From: Apostichopus japonicus | Lineage: Eukaryota > Echinodermata > Holothuroidea > Aspidochirotida > Stichopodidae | NCBI RefSeq assembly: GCF_037975245.1 | Contig: NC_092583.1 | Location: 1,700,264-1,764,263 of the forward strand | Length of the DNA: 64,000 nucleotides | Direction: 5' to 3' | In this document: in pieces, positions 1,451-58,894 of the stretch | How positions within the stretch are numbered: position 1 is the first letter of the stretch | How the letters are laid out: the number at the start of each line of letters is the position of its first letter | Position numbers and translations under genes: made by a program | The notes under the pieces: generated by a model | What the model saw: the letters and a program-made list of their open reading frames with translations, nothing else | Databases searched by the model: none | Told to the model about the DNA's origin: nothing

Positions 1451-4200
1451 GGCTGTAAGCCATATCTGAGGATATCATAGCTCGACGCAACATTTAGCTG
1501 CAGCATTCCACAAGAGATGCCTTTATTCGTTCTTATCCTCCATTATAATCACCATCGTAGTAATGGGCTTGAAGCATTACGAAGATTACAACCGTAACTG
1601 CAAAGACATTTAAGCCTGACATCTCTCCATTATCTTAAACACCCTATGCTTATTCCATCACACAAAGAGCTTACGGATTATATGGAGTTCAACTCCCATG
1701 TCGAAGTGTGTGTAAACAGCTATGCAAGAAGAAGTCTAAAGAAAGTTTCACATCCAGTCTCTTTCCAAAGGCGTGGAAGAGAGTATGGCTGTGTATACAA
1801 GCGACCTACATAAATGAAATGGAAAGCCTGAGAATATTGAATGTAGGAACCTACATTGTCCATTATAACTTTAATATTTTATGTTAATTTGTTGTTGTTT
1901 TTGGAGAAGTCGATTGGTCTAGAGAAACATGGAAGAAACGTGGACTATAATTAAAAAAAGAAGTAAGTGCTACTCTCTTCTCATTTCTTCTTTTTCGAAA
2001 GCATAGAAAACACGAACAACTTTAAGATTAGAAGTTATATTGTTCTGAATAATACAAAACTTTAAATATTTAACAATACAATATACAAAATAATTAATAC
2101 AAGTAGCAGAGTCAGTTTGATCATTCTCGGCGATATATCGAATTAAAACCAAGAGCTGAAGACTTTAGAGGAGGAATTGGTGGTTTCGCTATATGATACA
2201 GTTGGACGAATGACGAACTGGCTTGCAAAGTGGGAGGAGCGACCGTACATGCCAAGACCAGTTAAGTCAACTTGACTCCTAGTAAACGTGTTGAGACCAG
2301 TTAAACACAGGTATACTCGTAGTGAACTTGTAGAAACTAGTTAAGTCAGCTTGACTCAAAAAAAATTGTTTTTTGGCAAAATCCAGTATCATCTTGGAAG
2401 CTTTTAGTCAACTTTGCCACAAAATCGCTTCACAAAAGTTGATGGATTTGTAGTTAAGTTTTTTTTTGTATTTATCGTCATCAAGCCTTGCAATATGACA
2501 GAGTCTACGTTAATCAGTTCTGTTAATTATATGAAGAGAATTGTTTCATGGTATCCAGATCAAGAAATATTTGATGAAAATTAGAACAAAGCAATTATCA
2601 ATGTTGAAAAAGGTGACTTAATTGTACCGTGTAGTTATTAATGGTATCATGTGTCAGATGAAAAAGACATTTCATTATGTTTTGTTATAATATTTCATTT
2701 TCATGGTCTGTTTTTTCTTCATCTTCTTCATTTTCTTTGATTATTCTAGCATTTGTAATTCAGTTATGTTCTCAGATATTAATACAAGGGAAGGATATAA
2801 AAACTGATTATAATGGACCGAACGTTTTGGTTACGCTTTCATTAATTTGTTGTGTGTTGTATCTATGGGCTGGACCCCTCACCACCCCCAACCCCCTCCG
2901 CCAAAGAAAATCGCCTCTTGCCCTTCCATAAAGGATCAGTCCCTAAGTAAGTCGAGCAAAGTTAGAATTTCACGTCTCTCCACCTTTGAAATTTTGCAGG
3001 TGCACGTCACTGCGCAAGTCCTGGATGCACACGCGCTTATTTTCCTTCATATTTTGCCCTATAGGAGTGGTTGTAACTTGTTACTTTCTAACTTAAAGGC
3101 ATTGAAGACTCGCTCCAAACCGCGTGCGGCCATCTGAAAAAATTAACTTTCCGTTGCATGCAAGTGAAGTTTTGTTGTAGCTGGACCTGAGATGTCCATC
3201 GCTGTATCGTTTGTACACTGTGCTGTGGGTATTGACCGCAGCTGTATGTACTGACAGTTTACTAGTGTCTAATTACCGACGGTAGCAAGCTGTGTGTGTG
3301 TATTTTCTGGGATCGATGGTGGTGTCTAATACTTTTGTTACACCTCATTCGAAACTAAGTCAGATAACCGGCATTTCTTTTTGCGCTAGTCTTCACACCC
3401 TTTAATTAGGCGAACTGCTTCCGTCGCCATTATTCCCATTTTGTATTCATTTTTTTTTTCTTATCGGTGTCCCTGTCTCTCTTGTTCTGTCATTTTGATA
3501 TTTTATTTACACAACATTTTGCTCTGAGATTGCTACCAAGAACGCAAGGCGCCATAAAATAATTAAAATGAAAAAACAAAACAATTATTAACTTATCAGG
3601 TTGATAGCTGTTGTGCGATTTGTATATCATTGGTACTTAAGTATACAACTTACATAACTGCAGATTTGTAGGCCCGGCGTCGATGTATGCATGCATGGGA
3701 TAGTGTAGGCCTACCCTTTGAACTCACATCTTGACATCCGATCCAGTCAACTTTTGAAACCGTTCTATTTACCATAAGGCTGCAGCTCAATGTATTTGTT
3801 ACCGTACCTTATGTATTAAAGACACATGGAATCGAGCAAGTGCGCCGATACAAATCACTGAAGTGCTGAATCATTCAAATGGATCCATTACATTAGCAAA
3901 ATGAGTGTTAGATAAACAAAGCAACTCCCCTCCCCCCCCCCCTCCCCCCGTTTCATGTAGGTAACGGTAAATCGTCGAAAAATATCAAGTCGAAAGGAGG
4001 ATTCAAATGTCGAGATTCAATTGTCGTAAATTTTGAGATTTTTTGCGGTGAAATAGTAAGTTGATATTTCCGGGGAAAAAATCGATATATACTTTGAGAA
4101 TAGATTGGCAAATTTGCGACAAACAAAATAGTGAAATATTAACCCAAACAATTGAAATTGCGACTAAGTAGAAATAATATCACTTTTTCGTTCGAAATTC
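1451..4200. other. Noncoding stretch, no feature recognised
   Basis: No gene supported. Open frames of 60-96 codons (for example near 2677 and 2847) are conserved in units 2 and 3 only because the whole unit is nearly identical, and they match no family I know. A C-rich run near 3926-3951 varies in length between units, as expected for slippage. One TAGGCCTA octamer lies at 3706-3713. Homologous stretches are about 24393-27164 and 47420-49379. Confidence 0.55.
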
Positions 4201-8935: not shown

Positions 8936-10455
8936 GTCCGAGTGCAGAAAGCTGGACTCGAGTACTATAAACGTGTGGGTATTACACATTTCTTTGTGGG
9001 TATACTGTACGGGTGGGATTTACATTAAATACGTGTTTGTTGCCACATTGTTCAGTTCAGTTCAGTGGTGTTGTTATTGTTTGTTGTGTAGGGCAATCAA
9101 TCTTGTAAACCTTTATACAACAGACACATCCCTACCTGTGATTCATTGATTAACGGTAAACTGTAACCGTAGGTGCTTTTTTGTTTTTTAAATTATGTGA
9201 TGCAACTTACCAGGTAGAAACAATTAAACTCAAGAACACTGTGATACAACAAATTTGAACACATTGTTAGTAACAGATGATGAAGCCACAAATGAAAGTA
9301 TGAGTTCATGTATAAGAATTCAAAATAATAACAATTTTGGAAGCTAGGAAAGTTTTAAAGAAAATGGTTACACATCTCTAAAAGAGTAACGGCGTTCCGT
9401 TATAACAATTCCTCATTCATATAAACACTTAATAGACATGCCTTTTTACCTGCAACTTTAAACCAGGGAGTTGAAAAAAAATAATATTCATCTGTTTGCA
9501 CAAATCGTAGATATAACCCTCAGTGTCAACGTGTAAATTGTGTAAACAAGAGTACAACGACACAGGATTCGGGATTTGAGCAGGTTTCCAATAACATGTT
9601 TTCGTACTTTTTGGAATAATATCTTTCTTTCTTTCTTTTAAAATAACCGCAACTTCTCAAAAGAACCGACATTTCTTCAAATCCTTTGTATAGATGATTG
9701 AATTTGTTTCAAAACAAATAAATGATAACAATCAACCGCAAAGTAGAAGGTTAAAAACACTCCCGTTACAAAGAAGTTTCATGCTGAAAGCAGTCAATGA
9801 TGCGTTTCCAAATTTCCTGTGATTTGTTTGACTAATAGTCCTTACCATTGTCTGCAAACATTTTTGCATTTATCGTGCTCAATAAACACAACGTATTTTG
9901 TTAAAATAACTTATTTATATAGCGCATTATACCGACGGTCTCAATGCAACTAATTGTAACGTTGCTGTCCCGTGTAGAGATAGCAAAGTTTGTATAGTAT
10001 AGGCTCTCATGTGTGTGCACTCTCAAATATCACAACGTGTATGGTTGGCCACAGTGGACAAAATTCAGAAATTATGACGACATATCAGGAGGCAGGACTT
10101 TTTTATGTCTACATAAAATTGATTTGATGTGGACATAAATTCAAATTAATGCTGGCATATATTAAAATAATGCTGGCACCGTACCGTACCAGCTGCGTAC
10201 TGATAATGCAGTTGGCACCTTCCTCTTTCAATCTGTTTCAATCTGTGTGAATATTAATGTACATTTAAAGAGTTGTGTCTGTATTGCATGTATGGGCTAC
10301 CACATTATGTCAAAATATTCTTGCTTATGAGTTGCACTTCTCTTTATATAGTAAGTACACCTTGTAAAGGGTTTCAGTGCAAACACATGAATTTATTTGT
10401 AATCTAAGATAATACATATAATATTAATGTCCCCACGCTTCCATAGGCATGAGTT
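8936..10455. other. Noncoding stretch
   Basis: No gene recognised. It contains a lone CCAGGGAGTTG arm at 9473-9483 (one half of the mini-palindrome family described elsewhere) and a short (CTTT)n run near 9625. Homologous stretches are 30644-32163 and 52861-54380. Confidence 0.5.
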
Positions 10456-13492: not shown

Positions 13493-13914
13493 GTAAGTTA
13501 ATGGTTTTGCCTCGATTTCAAGTTTTCGGTCTGTGAAAAGTCAGCTTCTGGTAAAACTTTTAGCTTTACTACTATAAAGGCCCCCCCTCCCCCTCTCAAT
13601 CAATAAGTCTTAAAGCAGCATTTTGCGTTGGGTCGCTTTTTTCCACTTTTTTAACATGTGCATCGATTTTTTTACATGTATCAATCATAAAACAGCAATC
13701 TAAGATACCATCCAAGTTTCACCCTGCCAAGAGCGTTAATTAGCGAGTAATTAACGATTTATGTCGATAAATGAGAAGAGTGTCCTCGACAAATTTCACA
13801 GTTAAAATTAATTGCATACAATTCCGCCAAACCCACTAGTTTGAATTCAACCAATCAGAGATGCAGGTTTAGTTATGAGCCGTTGCTAAATATAGATTCA
13901 AGACTTCGCGTTGG

Positions 13915-13951
13915 TTGTACCAGGGAGTTGTTATGCAACTCCCTGGTACAA
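13915..13951. repeat. Perfect mini-palindrome inside MITE 1, unit 1
   Basis: The core CCAGGGAGTTG, TTATG, CAACTCCCTGG (13920-13946) is flanked by TTGTA on the left and TACAA on the right, giving 16-bp perfect arms around a 5-nt loop. In the sister MITE copy the same site has direct TTGTA repeats and an arm mismatch. Confidence 0.8.
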
Positions 13952-14421
13952 CTGCCATATAGACTGTACACAAATCAAGCGTGGTGTTATATTACGTATC
14001 TGTCAATGACGTTCGTAGTGTTTAAATATTCATATTATGGGCGAGGTTTATTGGGTTCCCAACGGAAAATATCTTGGAGAACAACAAAGTTGAAAGTTGC
14101 AAATTTTTCGACTTTCATGCCACCATTTGAAGTAAAATATAAATAGATTAGCTAGTTATGTATGTCATTATGGCAAAGTATAGAATCAGTGAGGTTGAGA
14201 AAAATCATAGAAAAGGACGCAAAATGCTGCTTTAAAGCAGCATTTTGCAGCGACATGAAAGTCGAAAAATTTGCAACTTTCAACTTTGTTGTTCTCCAAG
14301 ATATTTTCCGTTGGGAACCCAATAAACCTCGCCCATAATATGAATATTTAAACACTACGAACGTCATTGACAGATAAGTAATATAACACCACGCTTGATT
14401 TGTGTACAGTCTATATGGCAG

Positions 14422-14458
14422 TTGTACCAGGCAGTTGCATAACAACTCCCTGGTTGTA
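14422..14458. repeat. Mini-palindrome with 5-bp direct repeats inside MITE 2, unit 1
   Basis: A 27-bp imperfect palindrome (14427-14453, left arm CCAGGCAGTTG, right arm CAACTCCCTGG with one mismatch) is flanked by TTGTA at 14422-14426 and again at 14454-14458. The direct repeats read as a target-site duplication. Confidence 0.8.
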
Positions 14459-15120
14459 CCAACGCAAAGTCTTGAATCTATTTTTAGCAACGGCTCATAA
14501 CTAAACCTGCATCTCTGATTGGTTGAATTCAAACTAGTGGGTTTGGGAACTGAATGCGATTAATTTTGTATGTGGAATACTCGCCAATTAACGTTTTTGG
14601 CACGGAAAAACTTGGCTAATATCTTAATTTGCTGTTTTGTGATTTGATGTAAAAAGTATGTAAAAAACTCGATGGACATGTCAAAAAAGTAGAAAACGGC
14701 GACCAAACGCAAAATGCTCATGAATAAACATACTGTTCACTGATTGGTGGAATTCAAACTAGTGGATTTGGAGATATGAAAACTTTGTCGAGGACACTTT
14801 TACTCGTTATCGACATAAATCGTTAATTACTCGCTAATTAACGCTCTTGGCAGGGTGAAACTTGGATGGTATCTTAGTTTGCTGTTTTATGATTGATACA
14901 TCTAAAACAAATCGATGCACATGTTAAAAAGGTGGAAAAAGGCGACCCAACGCAAAATGCTGCTTTAAAGTTGCAAGAATTATTGATGACTTCTTCGACA
15001 CATTCGGACATGATATTATCCTTATGTTTGGAATTAAGGGTGAGAATACTATACCGCCCTAACCACAAGTCATGTTCAAAGTTTGTCCCCGTTTCAGGAA
15101 AGCTCAAACATGCCCGCATG

Positions 15121-24392: not shown

Positions 24393-27300
24393 GAATGGCT
24401 GTAAGCCATATCTGAGGATATCATAGCTCGACGCAACATTTAGCTGCAGCATTCCACAAGAGATGCCTTTATTCGTTCTTATCCTCCATTATAATCACCA
24501 TCGTAGTAATGGGCTTGAAGCATTACGAAGATTACAACCGTAACTGCAAAGACATTTAAGCCTGACATCTCTCCATTATCTTAAACACCCTATGCTTATT
24601 CCATCACACCATGGAGCTATAAACAGACAAAGAGCTTACGGATTATATGGAGTTCAACTCCCATGTCGAAGTGTGTGTAAACAGCTATGCATGAAGAAGT
24701 CTAAAGAAAGTTTCACATCCAGTCTCTTTCCAAAGGCGTGGAAGAGAGTATGGCTGTGTATACAAGCGACCTACATAAATGAAATGGAAAGCCTGAGAAT
24801 ATTGAATGTAGGAACCTACATTGTCCATTATAACTTTAATATTTTATGTTAATTTGTTGTTGTTTTTGGAGAAGTCGATTGGTCTAGAGAAACATGGAAG
24901 AAACGTGGACTATAATTAAAAAAAGAAGTAAGTGCTACTCTCTTCTCATTTCTTCTTTTTCGAAAGCATAGAAAACACGAACAACTTTAAGATTAGAAGT
25001 TATATTGTTCTGAATAATACAAAACTTTAAATATTTAACAATACAATATACAAAATAATTAATACAAGTAGCAGAGTCAGTTTGATCATTCTCGGCGATA
25101 TATCGAATTAAAACCAAGAGCTGAAGACTTTAGAGGAGGAATTGGTGGTTTCGCTATATGATACAGTTGGACGAATGACGAACTGGCTTGCAAAGTGGGA
25201 GGAGCGACCGTACATGCCAAGACCAGTTAAGTCAACTTGACTCCTAGTAAACGTGTTGAGACCAGTTAAACACAGGTATACTCGTAGTGAACTTGTAGAA
25301 ACTAGTTAAGTCAGCTTGACTCAAAAAAAATTGTTTTTTGGCAAAATCCAGTATCATCTTGGAAGCTTTTAGTCAACTTTGCCACAAAATCGCTTCACAA
25401 AAGTTGATGGATTTGTAGTTAAGTTTTTTTTTGTATTTATCGTCATCAAGCCTTGCAATATGACAGAGTCTACGTTAATCAGTTCTGTTAATTATATGAA
25501 GAGAATTGTTTCATGGTATCCAGATCAAGAAATATTTGATGAAAATTAGAACAAAGCAATTATCAATGTTGAAAAAGGTGACTTAATTGTACCGTGTAGT
25601 TATTAATGGTATCATGTGTCAGATGAAAAAGACATTTCATTATGTTTTGTTATAATATTTCATTTTCATGGTCTGTTTTTTCTTCATCTTCTTCATTTTC
25701 TTTGATTATTCTAGCATTTGTAATTCAGTTATGTTCTCAGATATTAATACAAGGGAAGGATATAAAAACTGATTATAATGGACCGAACGTTTTGGTTACG
25801 CTTTCATTAATTTGTTGTGTGTTGTATCTATGGGCTGGACCCCTCACCACCCCCAACCCCCTCCGCCAAAGAAAATCGCCTCTTGCCCTTCCATAAAGGA
25901 TCAGTCCCTAAGTAAGTCGAGCAAAGTTAGAATTTCACGTCTCTCCACCTTTGAAATTTTGCAGGTGCACGTCACTGCGCAAGTCCTGGATGCACACGCG
26001 CTTATTTTCCTTCATATTTTGCCCTATAGGAGTGGTTGTAACTTGTTACTTTCTAACTTAAAGGCATTGAAGACTCGCTCCAAACCGCGTGCGGCCATCT
26101 GAAAAAATTAACTTTCCGTTGCATGCAAGTGAAGTTTTGTTGTAGCTGGACCTGAGATGTCCATCGCTGTATCGTTTGTACACTGTGCTGTGGGTATTGA
26201 CCGCAGCTGTATGTACTGACAGTTTACTAGTGTCTAATTACCGACGGTAGCAAGCTGTGTGTGTGTATTTTCTGGGATCGATGGTGGTGTCTAATACTTT
26301 TGTTACACCTCATTCGAAACTAAGTCAGATAACCGGCATTTCTTTTTGCGCTAGTCTTCACACCCTTTAATTAGGCGAACTGCTTCCGTCGCCATTATTC
26401 CCATTTTGTATTCATTTTTTTTTTCTTATCGGTGTCCCTGTCTCTCTTGTTCTGTCATTTTGATATTTTATTTACACAACATTTTGCTCTGAGATTGCTA
26501 CCAAGAACGCAAGGCGCCATAAAATAATTAAAATGAAAAAACAAAACAATTATTAACTTATCAGGTTGATAGCTGTTGTGCGATTTGTATATCATTGGTA
26601 CTTAAGTATACAACTTACATAACTGCAGATTTGTAGGCCCGGCGTCGATGTATGCATGCATGGGATAGTGTAGGCCTACCCTTTGAACTCACATCTTGAC
26701 ATCCGATCCAGTCAACTTTTGAAACCGTTCTATTTACCATAAGGCTGCAGCTCAATGTATTTGTTACCGTACCTTATGTATTAAAGACACATGGAATCGA
26801 GCAAGTGCGCCGATACAAATCACTGAAGTGCTGAATCATTCAAATGGATCCATTACATTAGCAAAATGAGTGTTAGATAAACAAAGCAACTCCCCTCCCC
26901 CCCCCCTCCCCCCGTTTCATGTAGGTAACGGTAAATCGTCGAAAAATATCAAGTCGAAAGGAGGATTCAAATGTCGAGATTCAATTGTCGTAAATTTTGA
27001 GATTTTTTGCGGTGAAATAGTAAGTTGATATTTCCGGGGAAAAAATCGATATATACTTTGAGAATAGATTGGCAAATTTGCGACAAACAAAATAGTGAAA
27101 TATTAACCCAAACAATTGAAATTGCGACTAAGTAGAAATAATATCACTTTTTCGTTCGAAATTCCTATCTATCTATCTATCTGTCTGTCTGCCTGTCGAT
27201 TAATTGATAGATTGATTGATTCTTATTCCCCATTCCTATTCATATCCCTATTCTTATGTCATTGTAATTATCATTATTAATTAAGCGTTTACTTAGCTAC

Positions 27301-35318: not shown

Positions 35319-36677
35319 TTAAAGCAGCATTTTGCGTTGGGTCGCTTTTTTCCACTTTTTTAACATGTGCATCGATTTTTTTACATGTATCAATCATAAA
35401 ACAGCAATCTAAGATACCATCCAAGTTTCACCCTGCCAAGAGCGTTAATTAGCGAGTAATTAACGATTTATGTCGATAAATGAGAAGAGTGTCCTCGACA
35501 AATTTCACAGTTAAAATTAATTGCATACAATTCCGCCAAACCCACTAGTTTGAATTCAACCAATCAGAGATGCAGGTTTAGTTATGAGCCGTTGCTAAAT
35601 ATAGATTCAAGACTTCGCGTTGGTTGTACCAGGGAGTTGTTATGCAACTCCCTGGTACAACTGCCATATAGACTGTACACAAATCAAGCGTGGTGTTATA
35701 TTACGTATCTGTCAATGACGTTCGTAGTGTTTAAATATTCATATTATGGGCGAGGTTTATTGGGTTCCCAACGGAAAATATCTTGGAGAACAACAAAGTT
35801 GAAAGTTGCAAATTTTTCGACTTTCATGCCACCATTTGAAGTAAAATATAAATAGATTAGCTAGTTATGTATGTCATTATGGCAAAGTATAGAATCAGTG
35901 AGGTTGAGAAAAATCATAGAAAAGGACGCAAAATGCTGCTTTAAAGCAGCATTTTGCAGCGACATGAAAGTCGAAAAATTTGCAACTTTCAACTTTGTTG
36001 TTCTCCAAGATATTTTCCGTTGGGAACCCAATAAACCTCGCCCATAATATGAATATTTAAACACTACGAACGTCATTGACAGATAAGTAATATAACACCA
36101 CGCTTGATTTGTGTACAGTCTATATGGCAGTTGTACCAGGCAGTTGCATAACAACTCCCTGGTTGTACCAACGCAAAGTCTTGAATCTATTTTTAGCAAC
36201 GGCTCATAACTAAACCTGCATCTCTGATTGGTTGAATTCAAACTAGTGGGTTTGGGAACTGAATGCGATTAATTTTGTATGTGGAATACTCGCCAATTAA
36301 CGTTTTTGGCACGGAAAAACTTGGCTAATATCTTAATTTGCTGTTTTGTGATTTGATGTAAAAAGTATGTAAAAAACTCGATGGACATGTCAAAAAAGTA
36401 GAAAACGGCGACCAAACGCAAAATGCTCATGAATAAACATACTGTTCACTGATTGGTGGAATTCAAACTAGTGGATTTGGAGATATGAAAACTTTGTCGA
36501 GGACACTTTTACTCGTTATCGACATAAATCGTTAATTACTCGCTAATTAACGCTCTTGGCAGGGTGAAACTTGGATGGTATCTTAGTTTGCTGTTTTATG
36601 ATTGATACATCTAAAACAAATCGATGCACATGTTAAAAAGGTGGAAAAAGGCGACCCAACGCAAAATGCTGCTTTAA
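35319..36677. mobile_element. Pair of inverted TTAA MITEs, unit 2
   Basis: Copy of 13610-14968 with the same three TTAA sites, including the mini-palindromes at 35629-35655 (perfect, inverted flanks) and 36136-36162 (direct TTGTA flanks). Confidence 0.8.
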
Positions 36678-45690: not shown

Positions 45691-45973
45691 ATGGCTGTAA
45701 GCCATATCTGAGGATATCATAGTTCGACGCAACATTTAGCTGCAGCATTCCACAAGAGATGCCTTTATTCGTTCTTATCCTCCATTATAATCACCATCGT
45801 AATAATGGGCTTGAAGCATTACGAAGATTACAACCGTAACTGCAAAGACCTTGAAGCCTGACATCTCTCCATCATCTTAATCACCCTATGCTTATTCCAT
45901 CACACCATGGAGCTATAAACAGACAAAGAGCTTACGGATTATATGGAGTACAACTCCCATGTCTAAGTGTTTG

Positions 45974-46796
45974 TGTAAGAAAGGGTCAGACGACACAGAA
46001 ATAAGTACAGTAGGACAGCAGCAGCTATAAAGTTCGTATGAATCTATTCTCTGGTAGGCTCATTCGAATCTATGGTAAAACATGAAACAATAAAATATAA
46101 TAAGTAACTGGTAAGATAATTATACGTAATACTCAAGTGTCAGTCTATATGTCATGTAATCGTTTATTCGAAGCGTTCTCAGAATGTTGGAGACACTTAC
46201 CACTTTGCCGGCGACTGCTGTCCCCATTTACAGGTTAGCCAGGTTAGCCAGGTAAGCAGTCAGTACGAATCATTCATGAAGCACTGGATGTTGGATATAA
46301 AGAATACAGGCAATCTAACCAGCATAAGCAAACAATCTCTCACTTGGGCTGCAGCATTATTTACATGGATCTGGAATTACAATTTACACTGATCTAAACA
46401 ACTCTTGATTCGTCGAATACCTTAACATACGTTCTTGGCGCAAAATTAACACTGCAAACTACATGGACCAATTACGCGACACTCTAGGCCTGACAAGTAA
46501 ACACATGATATAACAAAATGACGACTTGCACAAAATAACCAGGCACACGTAATCAAACTAATTTCAATAATACTCGACACTTATACAACATCTTACTACA
46601 ACAAAAGGTCCAAAATGATCTATAAACTTAAGTTCATCAGATGTTTCAGTTAAAATACAGGTTAGCAGAACAGAGCGAAATTATGACAGTTTTTCGCTTT
46701 ACTTGGGCAAACGAACAGCAAGTTTTTGTTAAATCAGAGTTGCCAAGTGAAGTGGTGGCGCACTTCGCAAATAAAGAAGATGGCTCTAATCTTACA
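45974..46796. mobile_element. Probable solo LTR, unit 3 only
   Basis: An 823-bp insertion absent from units 1 and 2. It begins TGTAAGA and ends TCTTACA (7-bp inverted ends with TG...CA termini). GTTTG flanks it at 45969-45973 and 46797-46801. Units 1 and 2 have a single GTGTG-like site there (near 1708 in unit 1). TG...CA ends plus a 5-bp target duplication are the hallmarks of LTR retrotransposons, and a lone LTR implies internal recombination. No internal genes, primer-binding site or polypurine tract are present. Orientation is uncertain. The 63-codon frame at 46641-46832 runs off its right end and has no recognised domain. Confidence 0.65.
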
Positions 46797-46842
46797 GTTT
46801 GTGTGTATACAGCTATGCACGAAGAAGTCTAAAGATGATCCG

Positions 46843-46875
46843 TTTAACCAGGGAGTTAACAACTCCCTGGTTTAA
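46843..46875. repeat. Mini-palindrome insertion 1, unit 3 only
   Basis: A 23-bp hairpin (46848-46870; arms CCAGGGAGTT and AACTCCCTGG, loop AAC) lies between two TTTAA copies (46843-46847, 46871-46875). Units 1 and 2 read TTTCA followed by CATCCAG at this site, with no hairpin. Confidence 0.8.
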
Positions 46876-46928
46876 CATCCAGTCTTTTTCCAAACGCGTG
46901 GAAGAGAGTATGGCTGTGTATACACGCG

Positions 46929-46973
46929 ACCTACCAGGGAGTTGTTATGGAACATAACAACTCCCTGGACCTA
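46929..46973. repeat. Mini-palindrome insertion 2, unit 3 only
   Basis: A 35-bp perfect hairpin (46934-46968; arms CCAGGGAGTTGTTATG and its complement, loop GAA) lies between two ACCTA copies (46929-46933, 46969-46973). Units 1 and 2 have GCGACCTACATAAATG with a single ACCTA, which is a clean empty site. Confidence 0.88.
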
Positions 46974-49900
46974 CACAAGTGAATTGGAAAGCCTGAGAAT
47001 ATTGAATATATAGGAACCTACATTGTCTATTATAACTTTAATATTTTATGTTAATTTGTTGTTGTTTTTGGAGAAGTCGATTGGTCTAGAGAAACAAAGA
47101 AGAAACGTGGACTACGATTAAAAAAAGAAGTAAGTGCTACTCTCTTCTCATCATTTTTTTTTTCATTTTTTCGAAAGCAAAGAAAACACGAACAACTTTA
47201 AGATTTGACGTTACAATTTACAATGTTCTGAATAATACAAAGTTAAATATTTAAGAATACAATATACAAAATAATACAAGTAGCAGAGTCAGTTTGATAA
47301 TTCTGGGAGAGATATCGAATTAAAACCAAGAACTGAAGACTTTAGAGGCGGATTTGGTGGTTTCGCTATATGATACAATTGGACGAATAACGAACTGGCT
47401 TGCAAAGTGGGAGGAGCGACCGTACATGCCAAGACCAGTTAAGTCAACTTGACTCCTAGTAAACGTGTTGAGACCAGTTAAACACAAGTATACTCGTAGT
47501 GAACTTGTAGAAACTAGTTAAGTCAGCTTGACTCAAAAAAAAATTGTTTTTTGGCAAAATCCAGTATCATCTTGGAAGCTTTTAGTCAACTTTGCCACAA
47601 AATCGCTTCACAAAAGTTGATGGATTTGTAGTTAAGTTTTTTTTTTGTATTTATCGTCATCAAGCCTTGCAATATGACAGAGTCTACGTTAATCAGTTCT
47701 GTTAATTATATGAAGAGAATTGTTTCATGGTATCCAGATCAAGAAATATTTGATGAAAATTAGAACAAAGCAATTATCAATGTTGAAAAAGGTGACTTAA
47801 TTGTACCGTGTAGTTATTAATGGTATCATGTGTCAGATGAAAAAGACATTTCATTATGTTTTGTTATAATATTTCATTTTCATGGTCTGTTTTTTCTTCA
47901 TCTTCTTCATTTTCTTTGATTATTCTAGCATTTGTAATTCAGTTATGTTCTCAGATATTAATACAAGGGAAGGATATAAAAACTGATTATAATGGACCGA
48001 ACGTTTTGGTTACGCTTTCATTAATTTGTTGTGTGTTGTATCTATGGGCTGGACCCCTCACCACCCCCAACCCCCTCCGCCAAAGAAAATCGCCTCTTGC
48101 CCTTCCATAAAGGATCAGTCCCTAAGTAAGTCGAGCAAAGTTAGAATTTCACGTCTCTCCACCTTTGAAATTTTGCAGGTGCACGTCACTGCGCAAGTCC
48201 TGGATGCACACGCGCTTATTTTCCTTCATATTTTGCCCTATAGGAGTGGTTGTAACTTGTTACTTTCTAACTTAAAGGCATTGAAGACTCGCTCCAAACC
48301 GCGTGCGGCCATCTGAAAAAATTAACTTTCCGTTGCATGCAAGTGAAGTTTTGTTGTAGCTGGACCTGAGATGTCCATCGCTGTATCGTTTGTACACTGT
48401 GCTGTGGGTATTGACCGCAGCTGTATGTACTGACAGTTTACTAGTGTCTAATTACCGACGGTAGCAAGCTGTGTGTGTGTATTTTCTGGGATCGATGGTG
48501 GTGTCTAATACTTTTGTTACACCTCATTCGAAACTAAGTCAGATAACCGGCATTTCTTTTTGCGCTAGTCTTCACACCCTTTAATTAGGCGAACTGCTTC
48601 CGTCGCCATTATTCCCATTTTGTATTCATTTTTTTTTTTCTTATCGGTGTCCCTGTCTCTCTTGTTCTGTCATTTTGATATTTTATTTACACAACATTTT
48701 GCTCTGAGATTGCTACCAAGAACGCAAGGCGCCATAAAATAATTAAAATGAAAAAACAAAACAATTATTAACTTATCAGGTTGATAGCTGTTGTGCGATT
48801 TGTATATCATTGGTACTTAAGTATACAACTTACATAACTGCAGATTTGTAGGCCCGGCGTCGATGTATGCATGCATGGGATAGTGTAGGCCTACCCTTTG
48901 AACTCACATCTTGACATCCGATCCAGTCAACTTTTGAAACCGTTCTATTTACCATAAGGCTGCAGCTCAATGTATTTGTTACCGTACCTTATGTATTAAA
49001 GACACATGGAATCGAGCAAGTGCGCCGATACAAATCACTGAAGTGCTGAATCATTCAAATGGATCCATTACATTAGCAAAATGAGTGTTAGATAAACAAA
49101 GCAACTCCCCTCCCCCCCCCCCCTCCCCCCGTTTCATGTAGGTAACGGTAAATCGTCGAAAAATATCAAGTCGAAAGGAGGATTCAAATGTCGAGATTCA
49201 ATTGTCGTAAATTTTGAGATTTTTTGCGGTGAAATAGTAAGTTGATATTTCCGGGGAAAAAATCGATATATACTTTGAGAATAGATTGGCAAATTTGCGA
49301 CAAACAAAATAGTGAAATATTAACCCAAACAATTGAAATTGCGACTAAGTAGAAATAATATCACTTTTTCGTTCGAAATTCCTATCTATCTATCTATCTG
49401 TCTGTCTGCCTGTCGATTAATTGATAGATTGATTGATTCTTATTCCCCATTCCTATTCATATCCCTATTCTTATGTCATTGTAATTATCATTATTAATTA
49501 AGCGTTTACTTAGCTACAGCCGGACTGGAGTTGTATACCTCCTGACGTCACACGAAGCTAAATCCGATAGAATAACCTCAATGCGGTTTGCAACGCCGGT
49601 AAGCAACTGAATACCCCGATCAGCGCAAAGCTTACAAGAAAAGCAAATACACCAAATGTTCAGAATACACTGGTACGTGGCGAAAGGTCTGTCGGAAGAC
49701 ATTAGATAAAGCGACCTACCACATTAGCATGAAAGGTTAGGCTCGCCAATTTATTTTCTATAATAGGCTACATGTTATCCGGTGAGTACACAGTTAAATT
49801 CTTATTATTCTAATAAGTAGCCTAACATAAAGACCATGTAACATTTCTATCTGTGTTAATGAACTATTATTCAAATATGATGGCGACGGAAGGCTCATAA

Positions 49901-57535: not shown

Positions 57536-58894
57536 TTAAAGCAGCATTTTGCGTTGGGTCGCTTTTTTCCACTTTTTTAACATGTGCATCGATTTTTTTA
57601 CATGTATCAATCATAAAACAGCAATCTAAGATACCATCCAAGTTTCACCCTGCCAAGAGCGTTAATTAGCGAGTAATTAACGATTTATGTCGATAAATGA
57701 GAAGAGTGTCCTCGACAAATTTCACAGTTAAAATTAATTGCATACAATTCCGCCAAACCCACTAGTTTGAATTCAACCAATCAGAGATGCAGGTTTAGTT
57801 ATGAGCCGTTGCTAAATATAGATTCAAGACTTCGCGTTGGTTGTACCAGGGAGTTGTTATGCAACTCCCTGGTACAACTGCCATATAGACTGTACACAAA
57901 TCAAGCGTGGTGTTATATTACGTATCTGTCAATGACGTTCGTAGTGTTTAAATATTCATATTATGGGCGAGGTTTATTGGGTTCCCAACGGAAAATATCT
58001 TGGAGAACAACAAAGTTGAAAGTTGCAAATTTTTCGACTTTCATGCCACCATTTGAAGTAAAATATAAATAGATTAGCTAGTTATGTATGTCATTATGGC
58101 AAAGTATAGAATCAGTGAGGTTGAGAAAAATCATAGAAAAGGACGCAAAATGCTGCTTTAAAGCAGCATTTTGCAGCGACATGAAAGTCGAAAAATTTGC
58201 AACTTTCAACTTTGTTGTTCTCCAAGATATTTTCCGTTGGGAACCCAATAAACCTCGCCCATAATATGAATATTTAAACACTACGAACGTCATTGACAGA
58301 TAAGTAATATAACACCACGCTTGATTTGTGTACAGTCTATATGGCAGTTGTACCAGGCAGTTGCATAACAACTCCCTGGTTGTACCAACGCAAAGTCTTG
58401 AATCTATTTTTAGCAACGGCTCATAACTAAACCTGCATCTCTGATTGGTTGAATTCAAACTAGTGGGTTTGGGAACTGAATGCGATTAATTTTGTATGTG
58501 GAATACTCGCCAATTAACGTTTTTGGCACGGAAAAACTTGGCTAATATCTTAATTTGCTGTTTTGTGATTTGATGTAAAAAGTATGTAAAAAACTCGATG
58601 GACATGTCAAAAAAGTAGAAAACGGCGACCAAACGCAAAATGCTCATGAATAAACATACTGTTCACTGATTGGTGGAATTCAAACTAGTGGATTTGGAGA
58701 TATGAAAACTTTGTCGAGGACACTTTTACTCGTTATCGACATAAATCGTTAATTACTCGCTAATTAACGCTCTTGGCAGGGTGAAACTTGGATGGTATCT
58801 TAGTTTGCTGTTTTATGATTGATACATCTAAAACAAATCGATGCACATGTTAAAAAGGTGGAAAAAGGCGACCCAACGCAAAATGCTGCTTTAA
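57536..58894. mobile_element. Pair of inverted TTAA MITEs, unit 3
   Basis: Copy of 13610-14968, with mini-palindromes at 57846-57872 and 58353-58379. Confidence 0.8.

Follow-up and report, generated by a model that had tools for sequence, protein, structure and literature searches.

Two short palindromes in a tandem array of the sea cucumber Apostichopus japonicus raise the question of whether so small a hairpin can be an insertion unit in its own right or is the trace of something larger. The window, a stretch of 64,000 nucleotides of contig NC_092583.1, holds three tandem units with identical 356-aa frames; the frame of the one unit tested is a galactose-3-O-sulfotransferase (PF06990). Both palindromes were found in unit 3, at 46848-46870 and 46934-46968, and both were absent from units 1 and 2, which carry the unoccupied sites, as the original prediction had stated. 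That prediction took the palindromes for tiny insertion units with 5-bp target duplications, and named as possible origins a residue of transposon ends, a footprint or a hairpin insertion mechanism. Our analysis favors the first two of these together. Each tiny palindrome very probably marks a place from which a DNA transposon of the P superfamily was excised and the break repaired, and is thus a footprint built of transposon ends.

Read as CAGGG...CCCTG, the hairpins measured 21 and 33 nt, and each lay between exact 7-bp repeats. At site A, two forward-strand copies of GTTTAAC (46842..46848 and 46870..46876) enclosed the 21-nt scar CAGGGAGTTAACAACTCCCTG (46849..46869, forward strand), made of 9 nt of one transposon end and 12-13 nt of the other; the same 21-mer was also present at G000:C1:12887912. 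At site B, GACCTAC (46928..46934 and 46968..46974, forward strand) enclosed the 33-nt scar CAGGGAGTTGTTATGGAACATAACAACTCCCTG (46935..46967, forward strand), to which the two ends contribute 18 and 15 nt, a length class that recurs among the genome-wide hairpins. The target duplication is 7 bp long and not 5 bp, as first read, and the CC...GG ends of the palindromes contain one target base per side. The outer C...G belongs to the target, since loci exist whose target lacks the initial G or the final C (ATCACAC at L005, CTTATAT at L050 and CTGTGAG at L043). The proposed empty site was exact for site B, where units 1 and 2 hold a single copy of GACCTAC (1803..1809, forward strand, and 24768-24774, respectively). 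At site A, the corresponding GTTTCAC (1745..1751, forward strand, in unit 1; 24710-24716 in unit 2) was one base off GTTTAAC, with another small difference just upstream.

The sequence CCAGGGAGTT occurred 19 times in the window at up to one mismatch, against a mean of 2.06 and a maximum of 7 in shuffles. A lone 11-nt arm, CCAGGGAGTTG, was located at 9463, 31171 and 53388, before an A run and without a partner arm; these matches are either scar remnants or chance. At 45969-46801, unit 3 also carried an insert that was missing from units 1 and 2. The insert, TGTAAGA...TCTTACA, spans ~823 bp (45974-46796), is flanked by 5-bp GTTTG repeats, and looks like a solo LTR.

The hairpins belong to a family that extends over the genome, for which all counts refer to one assembly of 671.6 Mb. 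The pattern CAGGGAGTT(N0-30)AACTCCCTG matched at 1981 places (reversed control, 1), and the 16-mer CCAGGGAGTTGTTATG occurred 632 + 667 times (reversed control, 0), both as exact matches that miss decayed copies. The exact 18-mer was found in none of the viral contigs. Among the first 50 of the 1299 16-mer places, which were taken in contig order and not at random, 16 lay in a MITE family and 34 outside it, the latter including a few nested or paralogous places (L007/L008/L070, L023/L024 and L073/L074). The copies are therefore not all internal parts of one larger repeat family, a possibility that had been raised against their independence. Part of the hairpin count is nevertheless carriage by one repeat, and independent scars number below 1981; very roughly, ~1300 hairpins would be non-MITE if the 16/50 share of the 16-mer holds.

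The first 80 loci and the window together yielded 61 hairpins, with one mismatch per arm allowed, and their flanking repeats were compared. Exclusion of 8 MITE-borne hairpins and 2 near-duplicates left 51 sites, which still include a MITE-like hairpin at L015 (25 nt) and members of a related family at L012 (35 nt) and L015 (37 nt). The flanking repeat was exact over 7 bp at 29 of these sites and over 8 bp at one (L019), and at no site was the longest exact repeat 4, 5, 6, 9 or 10 bp. With up to one mismatch over 7 bp, the number rose to 39 of 51, whereas left and right flanks of different sites matched over 7 bp in 5 of 2550 control pairings. The repeats at the de-duplicated sites are thus far above the chance frequency that the original prediction had considered. 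The 12 sites with at least two mismatches to a 7-bp repeat comprised the 8-bp L019, some MITE-like or nested cases, and a rest that is unexplained. In 19 duplications unselected for the final C, T2 was present in 17, A6 in 15, and G1 and C7 in 11 each, a trend toward the target GTNNNAC. When the fetched DNA was scanned for hairpins with exact 7-bp flanks, 38 were obtained, of which 29 started with CAGGGAG and three with CATGGAG; with the flanks shifted by 3 or 5, the same scan gave 51 and 38 matches, nearly all low-complexity repeats.

The genome was found to contain a full-length transposon that shares both the ends and the 7-bp duplication of the hairpins; a search for a transposon with these ends had been suggested at the outset. 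This parent element has 33-bp inverted ends (CAGGGAGTTGTTATGGAA and then TGGAGTTCTGTCTTC), is flanked by duplications of 7 bp, and encloses P-type transposase domains. Its existence argues against the tiny palindromes being insertion units, as the ends and the duplication are shared. The 33-bp end CAGGGAGTTGTTATGGAATGGAGTTCTGTCTTC bounds four elements, with one mismatch in two of the eight ends, and starts with CA, as expected of P superfamily repeats (~31 bp). A search with 30 nt of the end and up to three mismatches gave 22 genome matches (control, 0), which include four inverted pairs representing complete elements. These are C3:19626415-19638456 (12,042 bp, duplication GTCTGAC), C17:23626432-23639549 (13,118 bp, CTGAAAC), C2:29714454-29719013 (4,560 bp, GTTTAAC) and C12:11435185-11439664 (4,480 bp, GGTAATG), and the 7-bp duplication is exact in all four, in keeping with the P superfamily, whose target duplications measure 7 or 8 bp and favor palindromes. 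The terminal 18-mer followed by T occurred at 180 places, and the matches listed include the inverted pair C3:19626415/19638456, which encloses an independently found P-transposase match. Followed by G, it occurred at 23 places; in the 20 that were fetched and compared by eye beyond nt 19, only L093/L094, a duplicated locus, shared sequence past that position.

The P RNase H domain PF21787 gave 45 matches in the genome and none in the 14 control genomes. The C3 and C17 elements enclose such matches; the C2 and C12 elements hold none of the 45 and are probably non-autonomous. A 628-aa frame of the C3 element matched PF21787 and PF12017 (P HTH) above the cut-off, as well as the Drosophila P transposase of known structure (6p5a/6pe2, E 1.4e-9). 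The GTP-binding domain PF21788 appeared in two pieces, in order, with E 0.0099 (below the cut-off) and 2.4e-5 (just above it), as expected for an intron-containing gene. No THAP domain matched in the ten frames scanned at L081, and elsewhere in the element ~450 bp were fetched per end. The parent transposase frame (L081:1276-3159) also showed a sub-threshold match to PF12560, RAG1 importin binding (18.3 bits, cut-off 23.3). A 5-kb inner stretch was 99.1% identical between the C3 and C17 elements, which occupy different targets, suggesting that the family moved recently. Judged by its transposase domains, ends, duplication and target motif, the parent would be a member of the P superfamily. hAT, Transib and other superfamilies, weighed by their duplication lengths and end motifs, were dropped once the parent with P-type domains had been found.

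Four further P-transposase loci were rejected as parents (C17:17643182, C22:17556693, C19:10287233 and C21:1210892), as none had an inverted CAGGGAG pair with a 7-bp repeat within the 4.7-5.4 kb searched at each. The C22 locus contained one lone CAGGGAGTTGTC. Intact P-type genes without matching ends nearby do exist in the genome. Open P-transposase frames of 779, 789 and 764 aa were observed at L085 (G000:C19:10287233), L086 (C21:1210892) and L083, and the DNA retrieved at these loci showed no terminal repeats that match; the frames are possibly domesticated THAP9-like genes. The C3, C2 and C12 elements (L108, L112 and L113) also contain CAGGGA(G/T)TTGTT(A/G)TGGAA, a second, subterminal copy of a repeat-like end that lies ~225 bp from one of their termini.

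Comparison of the hairpins with the parent locates the break point. At the 34 non-MITE places, which had not been selected for it, identity to the 33-nt end extended over 15 nt (8 places), 16 nt (3), 17 nt (3), 18 nt (18) or 19 nt (2). None of the 34 runs past nt 19 into internal element sequence, which again disagrees with the insertion-unit reading; in the two nt-19 cases (L009 and L020), the next base is T by chance. We propose that a P-like transposon would insert with a 7-bp target duplication and would later be excised by its transposase through a long stagger within the 33-bp repeat at each terminus, so that both flanks retain a 3' tail of ~18 nt of element sequence. These identical tails would then be sealed by alternative end joining, with the terminal AA placed on an internal TT, with 0-1 nt of pairing, or with filler. 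The product would be a pair of duplications that enclose, in succession, at most 18 nt from each of the two ends, and it reads as a palindrome because the element ends are inverted repeats. The scar tails end at ~nt 18, as they would if this transposase made an 18-nt stagger. Repair was presumably of the polymerase-theta type, and the events are most readily understood as germline excisions of established copies.

The junctions agree with such a course. In the first 50 listed of the 1981 hairpins, the lengths ranged from 21 to 34 nt under a pattern that allowed 48, and with tails of up to 18 nt, a model with one full tail fitted best in 36. Exact joins of two such tails accounted for 34 of the 50, and the other 16 are read as later mutation or filler. 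The exact joins had microhomology of 2 nt in 17 cases, 1 nt in 11 and none in 6 (the counts include MITE-borne rows, in which one event is counted repeatedly), whereas the 82 possible joins comprise 6, 14 and 62, respectively. The commonest classes, 25 and 28 nt, correspond to the tail-model joins 9/18 and 12/18, in which the last two bases of one tail, AA at nt 17-18, pair with TT at nt 8-9 or 11-12 of the other. The 36-nt product of two 18-nt tails without overlap was seen within L115, and L076 contained the filler ATGGAA, as in the tail. The hairpins therefore carry the duplications, the short remnants of both ends and the end-joining signatures of P-type excision scars.

The hairpins could also be regarded as mobile themselves, as minimal elements of two inverted ends that P transposase moves in trans. 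Many copies, exact target duplications, empty sites and few full-length elements would all be compatible with such mobility. However, ten length classes and many junction types among 50 hairpins do not describe one amplifying unit, 34 of the 50 can be composed exactly from two tails that do not exceed 18 nt, and a unit of 21-28 bp is shorter than two staggers of 17-18 nt. Moreover, the one-sided remnants L011, L030 and L098 kept 15-18 nt from one end but at most 5 nt, and down to none, from the opposite end, so no inverted pair is left to move. A single defined, amplified unit with both ends intact was not found among the junction classes, which are many and unequal. We therefore regard mobile hairpins as highly improbable, and a self-moving hairpin, the third origin originally offered, as unnecessary.

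Five of the 34 non-MITE places (L001, L011, L023, L030 and L069) had no right end within 30 nt. L011, L023 and L030 are read as one-sided or nested scars, and L001 and L069 are two of the 34 places without an explanation as scars. L001 was also rejected as a parent end, as its 25-mer had one exact match and it departs from the parent at nt 19. At L023/L024 and L007/L008, scars were nested or side by side with one shared duplication; in this group, GTTTGAC occurred three times around two remnants, as if the same site had been struck twice.

Excision with repaired tails is familiar from the fly. In the available part of the report on Drosophila P{wa} (PMC2895639), excision of a 14-kb construct left 8-bp duplications, usually both kept, and 17-nt tails. 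Table 1 there gives, for flies without Rad51, 27 short-microhomology isolates, mostly of 2-3 nt, 18 isolates with insertions, some of them templated, and one blunt join. It also gives 20 long-microhomology isolates with most of the tails lost, products of a type that would escape the hairpin patterns used here. Wild-type flies showed partial gap repair followed by end joining (PMC2895639), and in Drosophila P the 31-bp repeat is cut 17 bp from its outer end, according to the portion of PMC7776569 consulted. To the extent covered by these sources, the fly junctions resemble the scars in the kept duplications, remnants no longer than the 3' tails, microhomology or filler, and aborted gap repair. 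They differ in having 8 bp and 17 nt instead of 7 bp and 18 nt, and in being laboratory-made and not natural and genome-wide.

Aborted gap repair was represented here by L097, L115 and L117, in which 65, 60 and 58 nt, respectively, of one element end precede an end join. The 7-bp duplications are exact at L097 and L117, and agree over 5 bp only at L115. These long remnants are gap repairs that stopped early, and they bear on a different account of the scars, abortive integration, in which the element is joined to the target, host repair fills the gaps as far as the recessed 5' ends at nt 18, and release by the transposase precedes ligation, making each scar a failed insertion and not the loss of an established element. 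The product would be the same, and scars strongly outnumbering elements would be accounted for. On the other hand, the three partial copies need an element-bearing template, most simply a sister copy, which suggests that some of the scars, at least, derive from established insertions, and the literature examined, as far as its accessible parts go, describes no such step for P elements. We consider abortive integration unlikely.

Scars outnumber elements (1981 hairpins against 22 end matches and four complete elements) by more than would be predicted from simple cut-and-paste transposition. Near-complete removal, and not the late phase of an ordinary invasion, might underlie this excess and leave the genome mainly with scars, either because insertion is usually aborted after strand transfer or because germline excision is routine as a defense, in which case the cutter would be the host or a domesticated P transposase; with all its versions taken jointly, we find this proposal doubtful. 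The excess may have an ordinary cause, poor restoration of a long element by gap repair. An element of 12-13 kb would be hard to restore in this way, so its excision would tend to end as a scar. Either way, the excess poses a testable question, namely what removes a 12-13 kb transposon so efficiently.

MITEs and other TIR-only deletion derivatives have two inverted ends, a target duplication and no coding sequence, and MITEs are mobile units that have internal and subterminal sequence. The scars are like them in the inverted ends, the target duplication and the absence of coding sequence, and unlike mobile MITEs in being dead junctions. For repeat annotation, this is a warning that what looks like an element, when it is a short palindrome between duplications, may instead be a wound. 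The two kinds of sequence meet in the foldback MITE of the window, which carries hairpin copies at 13920-13946 and 14427-14453, with matching places in units 2 and 3. In its right arm, on the reverse strand, 25 nt lie between direct GTTGTAC repeats (14421..14459 in unit 1; 36130-36168 and 58347-58385 in the other copies). In its left arm, on the forward strand, 25 nt lie between GTTGTAC and its inverse GTACAAC (13914..13952; 35623-35661 and 57840-57878). The MITE members were thus correctly predicted, with direct flanks in the right arm only. The arms were 82.6% alike over 511 columns, with the scar copies at mirrored places, and at the scar flank they differed by three adjacent bases, suggesting that the inverted left flank arose by a single later quasi-palindrome correction. 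The MITE inherited a scar, and other repeats can carry scars onward in the same manner. The inverted 7-bp flank of the left arm could also be taken to indicate that all the hairpins are palindromes of secondary origin, which arose through template switching or slippage during replication and have no connection with transposition. The recurrence of one sequence at 1981 places, the duplications of 7 bp and a parent that shares the ends speak against this idea; the parent element refutes it, and we give it practically no weight.

Excision scars are thus the preferred reading, and P excision junctions as such are already known from fly experiments. What is new is that natural scars are preserved in such numbers, that they represent a variant with 18 nt and 7 bp, and that they far outnumber the elements. 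Natural scars allow cut position, duplication length, target choice and end-joining pathway to be read statistically in an animal genome. We found no natural genome-wide record of P scars in the accessible part of the literature, with subscription journals mostly outside the search.

Among relatives of the parent, Galileo, of the P superfamily in Drosophila, has the 7-bp target GTANTAC in the part of PMC4168063 available, which fits the GTNNNAC of the element here. As far as covered in PMC4168063 and PMC3276498, Galileo/1360 share the 7-bp duplication and a P-type transposase with our element, and Galileo differs in its very long foldback-like repeats and many non-autonomous copies; the same portions describe no scar record for Galileo/1360. 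Zebrafish Pdre2/THAP9, in the section of PMC10983969 consulted, is likewise a P-type element of a non-insect animal with ends that begin with CA, and differs in its 13-bp repeats (CATACCTGTCAAC) and 8-bp duplication. Excision by zebrafish THAP9 in fly cells was accompanied there by larger flanking deletions (PMC10983969).

Hairpins of other sequence showed a comparable architecture. A related family, CAGGGAGCTGCTACTC..., with 7-bp flanks at one mismatch (the 35-nt hairpin of L012 and the 37-nt hairpin of L015), probably represents scars of a second P-like family. A second candidate family of scar hairpins had the sequence CATGGAGGT. At L053:2066, L053:2512 and L076:1195, the hairpins CATGGAGGTAAAAACAG... 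and CATGGAGC... lay between exact direct repeats of 7 bp and are candidate scars of further families. At L092, CAGGGAGTTGTTATGGAA was followed by GTTTTACCTCCATG, the end of another family, between the flanks ATTAGGG and ATTAAAG, and this locus looks like a mixed junction of two families.
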